DNA of 64,000 nucleotides from Psychrosphaera sp. B3R10 (GTDB lineage: Bacteria; Pseudomonadota; Gammaproteobacteria; Enterobacterales; Alteromonadaceae), in contig NZ_JAHKQH010000014.1 in NCBI RefSeq assembly GCF_018861025.1, forward strand, positions 1-64,000. The letters run 5' to 3'. The notes beneath the pieces were generated by a model. The model saw only the letters and a program-made list of their open reading frames with translations, was not told where the DNA came from and did no database searches. Position numbers and translations under genes: made by a program. The number at the start of each line of letters is the position of its first letter. Within the stretch, counting starts at the first letter, position 1. Shown here one piece after another: positions 9,042 to 39,417 of this stretch.

Positions 9042-9121
9042 TCGCGCCTCCTCTTTATAGGGGGCGTTCCTGTTGGCTGAGTTAGTGATCGGCTGGCAAT
9101 CATTAAAATTTGGAGAATACT

Positions 9122-9391
9122 ATGTCACTAAGTGTAGAAGAAAAAGCAGCAATCCTTGCGGATTTCGGTACTTGCGAAAACGATTCTGGTTCTGTTGAAG
9201 TTCAAGTTGCATTGTTAACTGCTGACATCAACAAGTTACAAGACCACTTTAAAGCGCACAAAAAAGACAATCACTCACGCCGTGGACTTTTACGTAAAGT
9301 AAGTCAACGTCGTAAGCTTCTTGATTACCTTAAAGGTAGCAAGCTTGATCGTTACAACGACTTAATCCAACGTTTAGGCCTACGTCGCTAA
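9122..9391 (+). CDS. rpsO: 30S ribosomal protein S15
   Basis: S15 is a primary 16S rRNA-binding protein of the 30S platform. The 89 residues match the family over the whole length ([54 protein letters not shown]). The frame extends 12 bases upstream to an earlier start, but the ATG at 9122 with GGAG 6-7 bases before it gives the universal N-terminus. It has its own promoter and terminator. It is separated from truB by two unrelated genes and from pnp by two more. Confidence 0.97.
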
Positions 9392-19358: not shown

Positions 19359-20237
19359 TTATTTTGCAAAAGACGTTAGCATCCATTGAACAAATACATC
19401 GAGCTCATCTCTTGACGCATGCCAATCATGTTGGATTAAGTAATAGCGGTCTCGAGTATGAAGTTGCTTTTCAAAAAGAGGCATAATGACCCCTTCATCA
19501 AACCAACTTTGGCTAATCGGTAACGGTACTAATGCTATGCCTAGACCCTGTTGAGCTGCGCGTGCTACTGAAAACATACTGTCAACTTGGACAATTCGTT
19601 TAGGATCGAAATCATCAACGTCGTTTTCACTGGCCCATTGATGCCACGACCAAGGGCGAGATTGATGTAATATTAGTGGCGCTTCGTATAACGCTTGTTT
19701 GCCTAATGGTTTTAATTTTTGGTAAAGCGCTGGGCTACATGCAGGCATATAACTTACGGGAAATAGCTCATATGTAAGTGCGTCTGTTGGTTTTGATGCC
19801 GCAAGTACTATGGATAGGTCCGTTTCTTTTTTGTTTTCAGAACGAGACTTTACCGTTTCAAGTTGCAAATTAATATTTGGATTTTGATCTGACCAATGAC
19901 TTAATTTTGGAACAAATAGTTCGTTCGCAAAAAATTCGGGTAATGAAATACTAATTACCGAGTTTTCTGTTTCTTCACTAAATTTTTCAATTGTACTTTC
20001 AAGCTGCTCTATAACAGGTGCAATAGCTTGATAAAAATTTATACCATCACGAGTCAATTCAATTGCTCGAGTTTGTCGTTTAAAAAGCTGTTTAGACAAC
20101 TGCTCTTCTAACAATCGGATTTGATGACTGACCGCTGAAGGTGTTATGTGCAATTGCTTTGCTGCATGTTTAAAACTTAAACATCGGGCTGCAATACAGA
20201 ACGAGCGCAAACCACGAATTGGGGTTTGAATAGACAT
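19359..20237 (-). CDS. LysR family transcriptional regulator (GcvA-like)
   Basis: The 292-residue protein has the N-terminal LysR winged HTH (residues 5-63, AAKQLHITPSAVSHQIRLLEEQL and LFKRQTRAIELTRDG) and a C-terminal substrate-binding domain (about 92-288). The N-terminal pattern RGLRSFCIAARCLSFKHAAKQL resembles the GcvA subgroup. The effector and targets are unknown. It is transcribed away from the small-RNA array that begins 280 bases upstream of its start, and no divergent protein gene is adjacent, so the target gene is not obvious. Confidence 0.9.
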   Translation of the reverse strand: MSIQTPIRGLRSFCIAARCLSFKHAAKQLHITPSAVSHQIRLLEEQLSKQLFKRQTRAIELTRDGINFYQAIAPVIEQLESTIEKFSEETENSVISISLPEFFANELFVPKLSHWSDQNPNINLQLETVKSRSENKKETDLSIVLAASKPTDALTYELFPVSYMPACSPALYQKLKPLGKQALYEAPLILHQSRPWSWHQWASENDVDDFDPKRIVQVDSMFSVARAAQQGLGIALVPLPISQSWFDEGVIMPLFEKQLHTRDRYYLIQHDWHASRDELDVFVQWMLTSFAK

Positions 20238-20513
20238 AGGACGTCCTTAAATAATTTTCAAGTATACTTTAGTTATAAGATAGCAAGGCCTAGGCCAAAC
20301 TTTAGGTGTTTGAATTTAAAGGAAAATATATTATAGGTAATCATCGGACGTGATATTTGCACCAGTTTGGTGAGTGTTAAATTAATTTAAGTTATGTATA
20401 TGTCCAAAAGAGGGATGCACTGCCAGACAATCTTAATGAGAGAGTTGTGATTAGTAGCAAAGGGAATTGCTGAGAGTGAGGATATAGGATCTTTGATTTT
20501 GTGAATTTTAGGC

Positions 20514-20616
20514 AAAAAAATAGGCTCCCTAAAAAAGGAGCCTTAAAATTAGTTACCAAATAAGGTTAACTACAATCAACAGGGTAAGAACAAACCCGAG
20601 GAGGCATGAACTTATG
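20514..20616 (-). ncRNA. Repeat small RNA copy 1 (divergent copy)
   Basis: A predicted RNA of about 103 nt reads from about 20616 down to the T-run at 20514. The terminator stem is GGCTCC/GGAGCC, whereas other copies have GGCCACT/AGTGGCC, so the stem changed on both sides. The CCUCCUC core is present, but the flanking AACC/GGUU stem of the other copies is lost. The second conserved segment UUACCCUGUUGAUUGUAGUU is kept. Promoter: TTTACA, 16 bases, TATACT. No family name is known to me. Confidence 0.7.
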
Positions 20617-20618
20617 TA

Positions 20619-20650
20619 TTAGAGTATAGACTCTTTACTCTAATTGTAAA
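20619..20650 (-). promoter_or_regulatory. Promoter and operator of small RNA copy 1
   Basis: On the minus strand, -35 TTTACA (20645-20650) and -10 TATACT (20623-20628) with 16 bases between. A perfect inverted repeat TTAGAGTA-N9-TACTCTAA covers 20619-20643, overlapping the spacer and -10, and is a likely regulator site. Confidence 0.65.
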
Positions 20651-20806
20651 GCGGTATTTTGAAATATTTCTACAAAAGTGTAAATAAATAACAAAACAAC
20701 GATATTTTCGACAATTTTATCTTTATTTTAATTGGTAGATGCTTTGGAATTAACGAATAGCGCCCGCGGGCAACATGAAATAAGGGAATAAGTAAGCAGG
20801 GAAGGC

Positions 20807-20912
20807 AAAAAAAGAGGCCACTTCAAAAGAGTGGCCTTAAAATTAGTTACGAAATATGGCGAACTACAATCAACAGGGTAAGATCTAAACCTGAGGAGGG
20901 TTAAGAACTTGT
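20807..20912 (-). ncRNA. Repeat small RNA copy 2
   Basis: Predicted RNA of about 106 nt. From the 5' end: a small hairpin AACC-CUCCUCA-GGUU that exposes an anti-Shine-Dalgarno loop, a segment closed by UUACC/GGUAA with UGUUGAUUGUAGUU in the loop, and a terminator AGGCCACU/AGUGGCCU followed by seven Us. First of four nearly identical units with a 185-186 bp period. Confidence 0.75.
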
Positions 20913-20914
20913 GA

Positions 20915-20946
20915 TTAGAGTATAGAGTCTTAACTCTAGTGTCGAA
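20915..20946 (-). promoter_or_regulatory. Promoter and operator of small RNA copy 2
   Basis: Minus strand: TTCGAC (20941-20946), 16 bases, TATACT (20919-20924). The inverted repeat over 20915-20939 has arms TTAGAGTA and AACTCTAG (6 of 8 paired). Confidence 0.6.
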
Positions 20947-20992
20947 CGCATTAATTTAATCTAATGGTTTATATTTTTTCATGTGTAAAATT

Positions 20993-21097
20993 AAAAAAGA
21001 GGCCACTTCAAAAGAGTAGCCTTAAAATTAGTTACCAAATATGGCGAACTACAATCAACAGGGTAAGATCTAAACCTGAGGAGGGTTAAGAACTTAT
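20993..21097 (-). ncRNA. Repeat small RNA copy 3
   Basis: Same layout as copy 2: AACC-CUCCUCA-GGUU hairpin, UUACC/GGUAA closed segment, terminator. One terminator-stem base differs (GGCUACU against AGUGGCC), which leaves a U-G wobble pair and keeps the stem. Confidence 0.75.
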
Positions 21098-21099
21098 GA

Positions 21100-21131
21100 T
21101 TAGAGTATAGAGTCTTAACTCTAGTGTCGAA
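21100..21131 (-). promoter_or_regulatory. Promoter and operator of small RNA copy 3
   Basis: Minus strand: TTCGAC (21126-21131), 16 bases, TATACT (21104-21109), with AACGCGTT directly upstream of the -35. Confidence 0.6.
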
Positions 21132-21177
21132 CGCGTTAATTTAACCTGATGGTTAATGTTTTTTCATGTGTGATATT

Positions 21178-21282
21178 AAAAAAGAGGCCACTTCAAAAGA
21201 GCGGCCTTAAAATTAGTTACCAAATATGGCGAACTACAATCAACAGGGTAAGATCTAAACCTGAGGAGGGTTAAGAACTTGT
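21178..21282 (-). ncRNA. Repeat small RNA copy 4
   Basis: Same layout as copy 2. The terminator stem has GGCCGCU opposite AGUGGCC, again a wobble-compatible change. The anti-SD hairpin and the UUACC/GGUAA segment are unchanged. Confidence 0.75.
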
Positions 21283-21284
21283 GA

Positions 21285-21316
21285 TTAGAATATAGAGTCT
21301 TAACTCTAGTGTCGAA
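21285..21316 (-). promoter_or_regulatory. Promoter and operator of small RNA copy 4
   Basis: Minus strand: TTCGAC (21311-21316), 16 bases, TATATT (21289-21294). AACGCGTT precedes the -35. Confidence 0.6.
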
Positions 21317-21362
21317 CGCGTTAATTTAACCAGATGGTTAATGTTTTTTCATGTGTGATATT

Positions 21363-21467
21363 AAAAAAGAGGCCACTTCATAAGAGTGGCCTTAAAATTA
21401 GTTACCAAATATGGCGAACTACAATCAACAGAGTAAGATCAGAACCTGAGGAGGGTTAAGAACTTGT
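21363..21467 (-). ncRNA. Repeat small RNA copy 5
   Basis: Same layout as copy 2, with a changed terminator loop base and two changes in the linker. In the direction of transcription it is the first unit of the five-copy array. Confidence 0.75.
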
Positions 21468-21469
21468 GG

Positions 21470-21501
21470 TTAGACTATAGAGTCTTAACTTTAGTGTCGA
21501 A
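21470..21501 (-). promoter_or_regulatory. Promoter and operator of small RNA copy 5
   Basis: Minus strand: TTCGAC (21496-21501), 16 bases, TATAGT (21474-21479). The inverted repeat is the most degraded of the set. Confidence 0.55.
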
Positions 21502-21539
21502 CGCGTTAATTTAACTCGATACTTAAATAATTATTATCT

Positions 21540-21919
21540 ATGAGGTTTAGAATCTAACTCTTGAAATTAAGGTGTTTTTGTACCAAAGCAAACGTCATTT
21601 TGTTTGGTTAAAATTGAACTAGCAACATTTACCAAATGGTTAACATTAGTTTGAGTGCCCATCAGGCAATACCATTGGGAGTCAATTAGTGTTTGTCAAA
21701 GCGTTTAAAATAACGATAAGCAGAACCACTCTTATGCTTAGCAACAACTAATAATTGTATTCACGATGCCCTAGCAATCTATCCTAATAGTGCTTGCAGA
21801 GGTAGCGTTTGCAAATTGTACTTTTAAAATAAGTCATTTTACGTCGCTATCGCACCTCAGAAAATTAGCTGTTTATATTTTTAACTCAAAATCAACGGGC
21901 CAATCGAATAGCACTTTTA
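21540..21919. other. Non-coding gap between the small RNA array and the MATE gene
   Basis: I see no gene, clear terminator or repeat copy in these 380 bases. It is AT-rich and downstream of the minus-strand MATE gene. Confidence 0.5.
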
Positions 21920-24614: not shown

Positions 24615-24821
24615 ATGGGAATAGTTAAAATATCTGATCAGTTACATGATGAAATTAGAAAGTCTAGCAACGTCATGTCTAGATCAATCAACTCACAAGC
24701 TGAATTTTGGATAAAAATGGGTATGCTTGCAGAGCTAAATCCAACACTTACCTTTCATGAAATCATTAAAAGTCAATTGCTTAAAGAAAACCTTGCTATT
24801 GAAGGGTTATTGCATGAATAA
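24615..24821 (+). CDS. ParD-like antitoxin-family protein
   Basis: The 68-residue protein resembles the ParD-like family (ribbon-helix-helix related: MGIVKISDQLHDEIRKSSNVM, quoted in part as VKISDQLHDEIRKS, then SRSINSQAEFWIKMGMLAELNP). The reading frame runs 18 bases upstream to a TTG, but the ATG at 24615 gives the family N-terminus. It overlaps the next gene, a second methionine aminopeptidase, by 8 bases, so translation is coupled. No ParE toxin is present. This pairing of a ParD-like protein with a type I MAP occurs, to my knowledge, in other marine gammaproteobacteria; its meaning is not known. Confidence 0.8.
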   Translation: MGIVKISDQLHDEIRKSSNVMSRSINSQAEFWIKMGMLAELNPTLTFHEIIKSQLLKENLAIEGLLHE

Positions 24822-25590
24822 AACAGTGATAAAAACGGAAACTGAAATTAACTTTATGAGAGAGTCTGGTAGGCTTCTATCTAAAGTATTTGCAATGCTC
24901 GACGACTTTATTTGTGAAGGTATAACAACGTTAGATATTGACTCCAAAGTTGAAAGTTACATTGTTAATGAATTAAAGTCCCGGCCTGCAAGTAAAGGGC
25001 AATATGGTTATCAGTATTCACTCAACTCTTCGTTAAATGATGTGGTATGCCATGGCGTACCTAATGATAGGCATATTTTAAAAGCCAAAGATATTTTAAA
25101 TATTGATATCACCTTAGAAAAAAATGGTTATATCAGCGATTCAAGCAAAATGTATACTTTCAGTGCAACAAGCGCTGAAGCGAAACGATTAGTTAAAACC
25201 ACTTACGAAGCAATGTGGGAAGGTATTAAGGTCGTAAAACCTAAAGCTACGCTGGGTGATATTGGTCATGCTATTCAAAAGCATGCAGAATCTGCGGGTT
25301 ACAGTATTGTAAGAGAATATTGCGGCCATGGCATTGGTAAAGAGATGCACGAAGAGCCGCAAGTTCTCCATTATGGCAAACCTCATTCAGGTTTTGTTTT
25401 AGAAGCAGGAATGACTTTCACTATAGAGCCAATGATCAATCAAGGTTCAAAGAAAATAAAAACTAAAAAAGACGGTTGGACAGTAGTCACGCGTGATAAA
25501 AAACTTTCTGCTCAGTGGGAGCATACGATTTTAGTTACGCAAACTGGTTATGAAGTGCTAACCCTTCGTGAAGATGAAATACTATTATAA
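24814..25590 (+). CDS. map: Second type I methionine aminopeptidase
   Basis: MAP removes the N-terminal methionine of nascent proteins. The 258 residues keep the active-site set of the family: His in VVCHGVPND, Asp in LNIDITL, Asp in SDSSKM, His in CGHGIGKEMHEEP, Glu in FTIEPMIN and Glu in QWEHTI. The frame is open to 24757, but the ATG at 24814 lies inside the end of the ParD-like gene and gives the family N-terminus. It is clearly diverged from the canonical map at 38339-39130, so the organism has two. Terminator after the stop is not evident. Confidence 0.92.
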   Translation: MNKTVIKTETEINFMRESGRLLSKVFAMLDDFICEGITTLDIDSKVESYIVNELKSRPASKGQYGYQYSLNSSLNDVVCHGVPNDRHILKAKDILNIDITLEKNGYISDSSKMYTFSATSAEAKRLVKTTYEAMWEGIKVVKPKATLGDIGHAIQKHAESAGYSIVREYCGHGIGKEMHEEPQVLHYGKPHSGFVLEAGMTFTIEPMINQGSKKIKTKKDGWTVVTRDKKLSAQWEHTILVTQTGYEVLTLREDEILL

Positions 25591-25680
25591 TGGATAACCT
25601 ATGCCGTTAGCTGCTCAAATCTAATGCTGCTTATTGCTTAAAGGTATGAACTTCGGTGGTTGACTCAATATCTTTGTTCA

Positions 25681-25722
25681 AATCACAAATCACAAATCAC
25701 AAATCACAAATCACAAATCACA
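25681..25722. repeat. Heptamer tandem repeat (AATCACA)x6
   Basis: Six perfect copies of a 7-base unit lie in the intergenic region 90 bases after map2. The copy number could vary by slippage, but the repeat is outside any gene or recognised promoter. Confidence 0.95.
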
Positions 25723-25865
25723 AACAGCTATGCTTGTCACAGTCCAATTTGATAAACATTGTTAATGTGTAGACTTATATCAATAGCAAATTTGTTTCGT
25801 GCTTAGATACTACTAATTGGATGCTTAGCTATGAAGTGTTTAGTTAATTATTAGAATGAAGGGAT

Positions 25866-25972
25866 AAAAAAAGAGGCCACTTCAAATAAAGTGGCCTTAA
25901 AATTAGTTACCAAATTCGGCGAACTACAATCAACAGGGTAAGATCTAAACCTGAGGAGGGTTAAGAACTTGT
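25866..25972 (-). ncRNA. Repeat small RNA copy 6
   Basis: A predicted RNA of about 107 nt with the same parts as copies 2-5, 4.4 kb away from them: AACC-CUCCUCA-GGUU hairpin, UUACC/GGUAA segment, terminator GGCCACUU/AAGUGGCC with a different loop and seven Us. Conservation of the RNA part and of the promoter at a separate locus argues that the unit is a gene. Confidence 0.75.
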
Positions 25973-25974
25973 GA

Positions 25975-26006
25975 TTAGAATATAGAGTCTAAACTCTATC
26001 GTCGAA
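25975..26006 (-). promoter_or_regulatory. Promoter and operator of small RNA copy 6
   Basis: Minus strand: TTCGAC (26001-26006), 16 bases, TATATT (25979-25984). AACGCGTT precedes the -35, as in copies 3-5. Confidence 0.6.
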
Positions 26007-26052
26007 CGCGTTAATTTAATTCGATAGGTGAATTATATTCATTTATTTGGGT

Positions 26053-26158
26053 AAAAAAGAGGCCACTTCAAATAAAGTGGCCTTAAAATTAGTTACCAAA
26101 TTTGGCGAACTACAATCAACAGGGTAAGAACTAAACCTGAGGAGGGTTAAGAACTTAT
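26053..26158 (-). ncRNA. Repeat small RNA copy 7
   Basis: A predicted RNA of about 106 nt, 187 bp from copy 6. It has the AACC-CUCCUCA-GGUU hairpin, the UUACC/GGUAA segment and the GGCCACUU/AAGUGGCC terminator. Its upstream region is of the copy-1 type rather than the copy 2-6 type. Confidence 0.75.
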
Positions 26159-26160
26159 AA

Positions 26161-26192
26161 ATAGAGTATAGACTCTTTGCTCTATTCACTAG
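26161..26192 (-). promoter_or_regulatory. Promoter and operator of small RNA copy 7
   Basis: Minus strand: -10 TATACT (26165-26170); no good -35. Inverted repeat arms ATAGAGCA and TACTCTAT with N9 between (26161-26185), one mismatch. A weak -35 beside a good operator suggests dependence on an activator. Confidence 0.5.
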
Positions 26193-26220
26193 CGTTATAA
26201 ACTAACGCATTAAGTTAATT

Positions 26221-26838
26221 TATTTCACTTGTTGACTAAAAATAACAGGTCCCTATCGCAATCTAAGCCAGACAATCATATTTGAATACATTATTAGTAA
26301 TTAAAGCAATCCATCGGTTTACTAACTATTCAGTTACGAATATATGGTATTTGCTCTAATAAAAAGTAATGTGAATACGTTAGTCAGCGCTAAATCTCAA
26401 ATATAACATTATTGTGTAGTCATTCTAGCGGCATAGTGATATCTGCATTTAATGACTTCTTGTTCATTTCCACACGACCCATGTGTTTGTCAAATCAGCT
26501 AATTAACCATAAAACAAGTTTGCGCGAAAAATCTCGATTTTAATTATTTTTGTCAGAATAAACACCGTATTAGGGAAAAGGGGATAGCCGGCGTATTTAT
26601 TTCATCTAATGGGTTATTTAATTTGGTGTGTCTAGCAATCTAATTATTGTTATCTTCTTCTTGTCTCATTGATTCATTTAAAAGGGGGAACAATAGAAAA
26701 TCTCATACCCCTGTTTATAAGTTACAGATAAGATTTAGGACAGAAATTGTCATAGTAGTTAAATGTAGATTAGTGGTTACACATTATATTGTTATCTTTA
26801 TATAACGTGCTGTTATTCGGTTTCTACTTTTGGTATGA
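26221..26838. other. Non-coding gap, 618 bases
   Basis: I see no gene, repeat or RNA structure that I can support in this AT-rich stretch. It lies beyond the stop of the minus-strand membrane-protein gene (26839). Confidence 0.5.
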
Positions 26839-38338: not shown

Positions 38339-39130
38339 TTAGTGTGTAATGATCCGAGGGAAGTCTTCATCATTTCTCAATGTGAGAACTTCAACGCCAT
38401 TTTCAGTCACAAGTAATGTATGTTCCCATTGTGCCGATAATTTTCTATCTTTTGTGACTGCCGTCCATTGATCTTTAAGCACTTTTAACTTGTGTGTTCC
38501 GGCATTAATCATTGGCTCTATAGTAAAACACATGCCAGCCTTAAGTTCTTCGCCTGTTCCAGCCCGGCCGTAGTGCACTACTTGAGGCTCTTCATGGAAT
38601 CCTTCGCCAATGCCGTGACCACAAAAATCGCGGACTACCGAATATGAATGTTTCTCTGCATGGTTTTGAATGACCTCACCGATATCGCCTAAACGACAAC
38701 CTGGTTTAACTAACTCAATGGCTTTATAAAGGCATTCTTGGGTAACAATCGCTAATCGTTTCGCCATGATGTTTTCTTTTCCGACAAAAAACATTTTTGA
38801 CGTATCGCCATGCACACCATCCTTAATTACAGTTACGTCAATATTGACACTGTCGCCATCTTTTAGTGGCTTGTCATCCGGTATGCCATGACAAATAACA
38901 TGGTTTATTGATGTACAGATACTTTTAGGGAACGGAGGGTGACCATAATTTAATGGTGCAGGGATACAACCTTGCACGTCAACAATATAATTGTGGCAAA
39001 TGGTATTGAGCTCATCCGTTGTAACGCCAACTTTTACATGTTCACCGATCATTTCCAATACTTCGGCAGCTAAACGGCCTGCAACTCGCATTTTCTCTAT
39101 TAGTTCAGGTGTTTTAATTATTGCAGCCAT
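38339..39130 (-). CDS. map: Type I methionine aminopeptidase (canonical copy)
   Basis: The 263-residue enzyme has the complete metal site: His in HVICHGIPDD, Asp in NIDVTVI, Asp in HGDTSKM, His in CGHGIGEGFHEEP, Glu in FTIEPMIN and Glu in QWEHTL. Location divergent from rpsB and upstream of glnD is the conserved one, so this is the housekeeping copy. The second copy (24814-25590) differs over much of its length. Confidence 0.96.
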   Translation of the reverse strand: MAAIIKTPELIEKMRVAGRLAAEVLEMIGEHVKVGVTTDELNTICHNYIVDVQGCIPAPLNYGHPPFPKSICTSINHVICHGIPDDKPLKDGDSVNIDVTVIKDGVHGDTSKMFFVGKENIMAKRLAIVTQECLYKAIELVKPGCRLGDIGEVIQNHAEKHSYSVVRDFCGHGIGEGFHEEPQVVHYGRAGTGEELKAGMCFTIEPMINAGTHKLKVLKDQWTAVTKDRKLSAQWEHTLLVTENGVEVLTLRNDEDFPRIITH

Positions 39131-39190: not shown

Positions 39191-39417
39191 TTGTTGTGTT
39201 TGATTACTCGGGTATGGTATAAAGCGCGCCTTATTTTTACAAAGGTTTTTTGAGTATTTACTTAAATCATTTTTGGATAAGTAAGTAAAACTAACATTAA
39301 TTTTAAATAACACACATATATCGACACATTCTCCGGGGTGCCAAAACGTTGAAAAACGGTGAGGTCGGATTGGAATGGGATATATGGAGGCCTAACCCCA
39401 TACAGAGGAAAATTAAA
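39191..39417 (+). promoter_or_regulatory. rpsB promoter and leader
   Basis: An extended -10 TGG-TATAAA (39215-39223) is followed by a GC-rich discriminator GCGCGCC, as expected for stringent control. The leader of about 190 bases contains a hairpin ATGGG/CCCAT (39375-39401) enclosing a GGAGG just before the true ribosome-binding site. In gammaproteobacteria S2 represses its own operon through the rpsB leader, so this structure is a good candidate for that site. Confidence 0.6.

Follow-up and report, generated by a model that had tools for sequence, protein, structure and literature searches.

A predicted family of LysR-linked small RNA genes in Psychrosphaera and other Alteromonadales, with receptor mRNAs as candidate targets

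Introduction

What might a run of near-identical intergenic units, each closed by a terminator-like hairpin, do in the genome of a marine gammaproteobacterium? The question is raised by a stretch of 64,000 nucleotides from Psychrosphaera sp. B3R10 (Alteromonadales according to NCBI; contig NZ_JAHKQH010000014.1, positions 1 to 64,000, here called the window), in which an original prediction had described a five-copy array of a small RNA (sRNA) gene with an anti-Shine-Dalgarno loop. We consider that each unit may be a tandemly amplified gene of a trans-acting sRNA of ca. 105 nt, equipped with a promoter and a terminator of its own. A LysR-type protein encoded by the gene just downstream would activate the units via a T-N11-A box situated about 60 nt before the predicted start, and the C-rich unpaired stretches that the RNA would display, i.e., the loop of hairpin 1 and (in Psychrosphaera) the linker ACCCUGUUGAU, would pair with mRNA start regions and block their translation, the mRNAs of TonB-dependent receptors being the best candidates. 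We put the probability of this reading at roughly 0.55. That the units represent a conserved sRNA gene family is, judging from the sequences, near certain, and the sRNAs probably bind the ribosome-binding sites of nutrient-uptake mRNAs. If the reading is true, marine Alteromonadales would possess a LysR-RNA circuit, not found in the literature searched, that controls outer-membrane nutrient receptors, and such receptors are central to how these marine bacteria feed on organic matter.

Results and discussion

Seven sRNA units in the window

The window harbors seven sRNA units, all on the minus strand, i.e., the five originally predicted (20.5-21.5 kb), which are real, and two more at 25.9-26.2 kb. 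All seven occurrences of the core TTACCCTGTTGATTGTAGTT are on the minus strand, and a count of seven was reached in none of 100 shuffles; a second core pattern scanned in the window returned the same seven minus-strand copies. In the five-unit block (20514-21468), copies 1 to 5 lie at 20514..20616, 20808..20913, 20993..21098, 21178..21283 and 21363..21468, and their start-to-start spacings (294, 185, 185 and 185) agree with the period of about 185 bp announced for four of the units, copies 1 and 2 being 294 apart. The two-unit block (25868-26159) is formed by copy 6 (25868..25973) and copy 7 (26054..26159). Each unit passes from a hairpin 1 with a CUCCUC loop through an unpaired linker ACCCUGUUGAUUG, which shows a single change in the window (in copy 5), to hairpin 2 and a terminator. 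The predicted loop display, AACC-CUCCUCA-GGUU, is found in copies 2-7 but not in the diverged copy 1 (GCCU-CCUC-GGGU). Intrinsic terminators, predicted for every unit, were detected by the terminator scan in seven of seven, and the fold energy of each of the seven RNAs was equalled in none of 200 shuffles (z -3.3 to -5.1).

A search of the complete genome with one unit (4.7 Mb in 48 contigs, E <= 0.001) recovered only the seven places in the window. Tandem, near-identical copies could also be the mark of a palindromic intergenic repeat that has spread by duplication and has no RNA function; however, the element scattered without its promoter part that the original prediction had envisaged is not what this search returns, as the copies are confined to one region of the genome. 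Moreover, the units are kept beside the same gene across genera, and the parts conserved are promoter, loop and terminator, which makes such a repeat highly improbable. The Rfam check suggested at the outset was run on the array and on 20 related loci and gave no Rfam 15 family at the gathering score, in support of the proposed independent gammaproteobacterial family of tandem sRNAs with an anti-Shine-Dalgarno loop. A permissive Rfam scan of positions 20480-21560 yielded 21 weak matches, the best to suhB/mmgR (E 0.012), an identity that we rejected, as these matches rest on the terminator part and lie below the gathering score. Elsewhere in the window, the S15 leader and t44 RNA are matched at 9069-9178 and 39293-39396 (both plus strand), and a short tandem repeat of TTTGTGA is present downstream of sRNA copy 6, at about 25680-25735.

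Occurrence within Psychrosphaera

With a covariance model of the seven window copies (R1), like units were recovered from relatives, as diverged arrays in three of them and as scattered copies in a fourth. Psychrosphaera saromensis SA4-48 has three copies (pattern scan), the uncultured Psychrosphaera 2-982 four on one contig and one at the edge of another, Psychrosphaera sp. F3M07 five in tandem, and the metagenome-assembled genome (MAG) HF-Dia12 three on three contigs. Units are present in five of the eight genomes of the genus (G000, G036, G077, G147 and G149); none were found in Psychrosphaera G134, and G148 gave a weak match only. A weak match in G108 was discarded as an sRNA unit, for it sits at the end of a coding frame, and so were the R1 matches in other genera (L012, L014-L019), which resembled unrelated terminators or coding DNA. 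An exact-pattern scan of named genomes found 35 stretches, of which seven belong to Psychrosphaera or HF-Dia12. The remaining 28 were attributed to chance, some (Microbulbifer included) without inspection; of those inspected, most lack a T-run.

Of the 23 copies, 21 retain the loop CUCCUC and 22 the linker ACCCUGUUGAU, while the stems vary. In alignment A6, 81.8% of the cells of the named helix pair, compared with 15-53% in slid versions, and covariation is weak (pairs changed on both sides were reached by 339 of 500 shuffles, pair types by 497 of 500). RNAalifold gave no structure on alignment A7 because this alignment slips, and therefore the hairpins were tested by arm swapping. With the 15 different Psychrosphaera hairpins, 45 of 1000 permutations give swapped arms that pair as well as the own ones. 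For 35 distinct hairpins of a wide set covering other genera, the own arms pair better in 1000 of 1000, in a set chosen by eye that favours hairpins and with arms compared within that set.

The LysR gene and a common promoter box

Just downstream of the array lies a gene for a LysR-type regulator (19359..20237, minus strand), the presumed activator of the sRNAs, whose orthologues also have an sRNA gene upstream. Its nearest named family is GcvA, the best score (206 of 288 bits) being under the cut-off, and the closest PDB chain is also GcvA. Further neighbours are MATE and AraC genes, and at least three genes separate copies 6 and 7 from lysR. Between the two sRNA blocks, together with the MATE transporter and a Rob-like AraC regulator, lies a gene resembling type I methionine aminopeptidase (24757-25590, plus strand, NCBIfam), and a second such gene was recognized by eye at 38339-39130 (minus strand).

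The promoter regions of copies 2 to 7, all on the minus strand, span 20914..20982 (the LysR-type box region of copy 2), 21099..21167, 21284..21352, 21469..21531, 25974..26042 and 26160..26229, and the box of copy 6 (ATGAA-N5-TTCAC) is the clearest in the window. They are covered by matches to R3, a promoter model that includes both the Psychrosphaera and the other-genera groups, at 20884-20982, 21069-21167, 21254-21352, 21439-21531, 25944-26042 and 26131-26229, respectively; these matches are partly given by construction, because R3 was built with two window copies. Copy 1 has neither a LysR-type box nor an R3 match. The consensus promoter reads AGTGAAAATAATTCACCTATC..GTGAATT..TCTCGTTTGTC, followed by a -10-like TATGAT or TATTCT, and its GTGAA-N5-TTCAC conforms to the T-N11-A pattern typical of LysR boxes. 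A loose form of the box is present in 39 of 41 promoters of the wide set and in 15 of 22 from Psychrosphaera, where shuffles would give 2.2 and 1.3. Overall the loose form is found in 54 of 63 against 3.6 expected and the stricter form in 40 of 63 against 0.4, with patterns that, like the wide-set hairpin list, were drawn up after the sequences had been viewed. As to the promoter originally assigned to every unit, a simple promoter scan places a sigma-70-like site directly before copies 1 and 4 only and shows no excess overall (18 sites, shuffle mean 23.3). This result is weaker than originally implied, and support for the promoters comes instead from their conservation between species. A palindrome, TAGAGT-N4-ACTCTA, adjoins the -10 region of the window copies (20914-20938 and equivalents), and a similar promoter (L009, about 1019-1050) precedes a small secreted-protein gene in G074.

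A like box with TCGTTTG, scored as TCGTTTGT with at most two letters off, precedes the next gene downstream of lysR at 24 of 29 loci (out of 30 with downstream DNA, counted without a shuffle control). By eye, this gene encodes a small secreted protein, mostly of about 170 residues, and in families f6 and f7 the box likewise stands before related proteins. Given that the box co-occurs with sRNA, secreted-protein and lysR genes, we infer that it is bound by the LysR protein, which would then activate the transcription of the units. Within f6 (L188, L189, L190, L192, L198 and L203), the protein behind the LysR-type box is conserved and has about 165 residues. Pfam gave no match for pieces of two related secreted proteins (an f6 piece among those tried), and 75 residues taken from the P. 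saromensis protein are matched in G036, G077, G147 and G149 and in none of G000, G108, G134 and G148.

Related RNA genes in other genera

A sequence-only model of the promoters and hairpin 1 of the 23 Psychrosphaera and HF-Dia12 copies (R2) was run on 394 genomes of the order and gave matches in 58 at E <= 0.05; many of these are surely due to chance. Seven places were inspected and five of them (in G038, G012, G074, G027 and G001) contain an RNA gene; of the remaining two, L114 is a protein gene and L117 is neither. In these five genomes a distinct short RNA gene, which has a terminator and a hairpin of the kind GAAAUC-UCCCCC-GAUUUC, is located upstream of the LysR-type gene that also adjoins the window array, and the step is not circular, because R2 holds no sequence from those genera. 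LysR orthologues were detected at E <= 1e-60 in 57 of 147 genomes of the family, one per genome, with identities of 55-73% outside the Psychrosphaera sp. B3R10 genome. Once G107, whose match lacks the N-terminus, had been dropped, 56 upstream regions were used, and by eye 40 of these (three from Psychrosphaera and 37 of the 53 others) have a short RNA gene that combines a similar promoter, a hairpin with a C-rich loop and a terminator. Another 15 have no RNA gene and one more (G115) is doubtful; all 15 belong to LysR proteins of 55-59% identity, though some regions with the gene have equally low values. An automatic filter (box, hairpin and T-run) caught 26 of the 56 regions, among them a false pick in G081 and, in G036 and G139, a hairpin other than the one with the C-rich loop.

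The loop of hairpin 1 is UCCUC in Psychrosphaera and UCCCC in most relatives inspected, and some genomes have more than one unit (three in G038, two each in G135, G112 and G003). In a second family, f16, R3 is also matched over most of its extent, again ahead of a LysR gene, whose start is the same in three genomes (G207, G304 and G188). From these sequences, a LysR-linked sRNA gene family appears to span numerous genera within one family and to reach at least one genus in a second. The finding is larger than was first reported; the original prediction mentioned neither the LysR gene beside the array nor the LysR-type box, and said nothing of a conserved linker or of an occurrence in other genera. 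At L112, L128 and L133, second promoter units with an altered or missing C-rich loop stand between the first sRNA and lysR and are possibly decaying copies. Promoter matches at L194, L195 and L200 (f25) and at L202 (f6) are followed by a short stretch with a terminator, in which no C-rich-loop hairpin was seen; they may mark further small RNA genes with a similar promoter.

Many genomes have a single unit on the lysR strand, ca. 210-530 nt before that gene and with a terminator in between, an arrangement that would suit a cis-acting leader or attenuator of lysR, in which the terminator stops most transcripts and controlled read-through sets the level of the regulator. Against such a main role stand the seven units of the window, each with a terminator and six with a conserved promoter, the position of copies 6 and 7 at least three genes away from lysR, and the fragmented MAG G149, where two of the three copies are on contigs other than that of lysR. 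We therefore regard a cis-acting leader as improbable and favour separate, trans-acting sRNAs. If this is true, the variation from one to seven copies lets one ask why small RNA genes multiply.

Candidate targets

The complement of the linker, CAATCAACAGGGT, was scanned with at most one mismatch in four Psychrosphaera genomes, and after 20 places within sRNA units had been dropped, 25 places outside sRNA genes were left, all of which were inspected. Five of the 25 coincide with the Shine-Dalgarno position of an open reading frame on the same strand, namely those of a TonB-dependent receptor (G036 and G077), a PHB-depolymerase-type esterase (G147 and G000) and a PII protein (G000), the names being best NCBIfam matches (under the cut-offs for the receptor piece and PII). 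With a seed shuffled except for CAGGGT, ten places were obtained, none of them at a Shine-Dalgarno position. The original prediction had offered two modes, action on ribosome-binding sites and sequestration of a protein, and with linker complements at start regions the former is the better supported, whereas nothing observed points to sequestration. Multi-copy genes and a loop displayed by a hairpin would equally fit a decoy whose C-rich loops titrate a protein or another RNA rather than pair with mRNA starts, but the linker has precise complements at start regions, and we think a decoy has little probability.

For the sRNAs read as blockers of translation, TonB-dependent receptor mRNAs appear to be the best target candidates. 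The receptor leader of G036 and G077, which are close relatives, contains a perfect 18-nt complement to the sRNA, AATCAATCAACAGGGTTA, and the receptor orthologues in G000 and G147 have AATCAACAGGG (11 nt). In leaders, ATCAACAGG occurs in nine of 20 receptor-like genes (seven of 18 without the two found by pattern) and in none of 128 other open reading frames, the receptors being taken from 20 loci among the 40 matches listed, plus one in the window. Exact complements of at least 9 nt to any part of the sRNA are found in seven of 18 receptors and 16 of 151 others (Fisher 0.004), and with the sense strand as a control the figures are none of 18 and six of 151. Receptor counts are not independent, because the genes with the motif amount to about three families and the species with the 18-nt complement are close. 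Whole-duplex energies separate the receptors weakly (p 0.02), with most of the twelve best being non-receptors. Even gene samples contain ATCAACAG in none of 311 cases in G036 and one of 326 in G108. The leader motif may be partly general, because G108, where no sRNA was seen, has a receptor-looking gene with AAACAGGGTTACAACATG. Random stretches of G036 and G108, intended as a control for receptor leaders, supplied no receptors, as the filter picked none. All target scans used the Psychrosphaera sRNA.

It is also conceivable, though unlikely, that LysR-activated sRNAs of this kind act mainly on mRNAs other than those of TonB-dependent receptors, be it those of the esterase and PII or, with the loop as the sole contact, a larger number of messages. 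Matches to the esterase leader come from two species and to the PII leader from one, and the C-rich loop is more widespread than the linker; yet the longest complement (18 nt) is that of a receptor leader, and the best non-receptor gene reaches 12 nt. The esterase leader (L239, about 680-725, G000 C5) contains an inverted repeat, ACCTTGTTGATTG...CAATCAACAAGGT; this mRNA could therefore mask its ribosome-binding site by itself, and it includes an almost identical version of the sRNA linker.

Comparison with known systems

A literature search, largely of papers outside subscription, recognised no such family. In Enterobacteria, GcvA is a LysR regulator encoded beside the small RNA that it activates, GcvB. 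The likeness is that of a LysR gene beside a small RNA gene, and the window LysR scores best against GcvA. We rejected GcvB as the identity of the units, for RF00022 has no match in the Psychrosphaera sp. B3R10 genome, and the same search detects E. coli among 14 control genomes. The CcsR RNAs of Rhodobacter, named in the original prediction, are tandem copies with anti-Shine-Dalgarno loops and are linked to CcaF and RpoH through an RpoH-type promoter and the neighbouring ccaF. Tandem homologous copies and anti-Shine-Dalgarno loops are common to both, whereas the string CCUCCUCCC is absent from the window loops (CUCCUCA, or CCUC in copy 1). For the rhizobial SmelA075 and SmelA099 families, hairpin loops with CCUCCUCCC are described as anti-Shine-Dalgarno, on variable stems (PMC3927594); these RNAs have three and four such hairpins each, the present ones only one of this kind. 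The same string appears once in the NfeR1 paper (PMC10746234).

A closer analogue is the group of LysR-controlled AbcR and NfeR1 RNAs. In AbcR RNAs, the first hairpin loop contains CUCCCA and a second motif, GUUCCC, stands between the hairpins (PMC5461406), VtlR activates abcR1 as well as a gene for a small hypothetical protein (PMC7486931), AbcR1 and AbcR2 are sibling copies whose targets are uptake systems (PMC5461406, PMC7486931), and LsrB of Sinorhizobium activates NfeR1 via a T-N11-A box in the stretch from -72 to -60 (PMC10746234). The AbcR RNAs with VtlR or LsrB and the present genes are alike in a C-rich first loop, a motif between the hairpins, the link to a LysR regulator (here a presumed activator), a small-protein gene under presumably like control and multiple copies; uptake-system mRNAs are candidate targets here. 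They differ in the motifs, with a UCCUC or UCCCC loop and the linker ACCCUGUUGAU here instead of CUCCCA and GUUCCC, in the position of lysR directly downstream, in candidate targets that are TonB-dependent receptors and not ABC transporters, and in copy numbers of up to seven. NfeR1 shares the LysR-type activator with an upstream T-N11-A box (predicted here) and differs in organism group and sequence. As a sequence, the T-N11-A box that characterizes the AbcR/NfeR1 group is found in 54 of 63 promoters here, window copy 1 being without it.

Because the motifs differ and no RNA family matched, we do not file these RNAs as AbcR/NfeR1 members, and none of the 21 weak Rfam matches at 20480-21560 is named AbcR or NfeR1 (judged by name alone). 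By analogy, the layout nevertheless resembles the LsrB/VtlR-AbcR/NfeR1 circuit more than CcsR, so that of the original comparison the loop and the tandem copies remain. Tentatively, and with somewhat less than even odds, we postulate a gammaproteobacterial counterpart of LsrB/VtlR-AbcR, in which one LysR protein would drive an expandable bank of anti-Shine-Dalgarno sRNAs plus a small secreted protein, the RNAs would restrain TonB-dependent receptors, and copy number (one to seven) would tune the dose between species. If true, the AbcR circuit would have a parallel here that is either independent or very old. In one of the relatives, G038, CUCCCA can be read across stem and loop.
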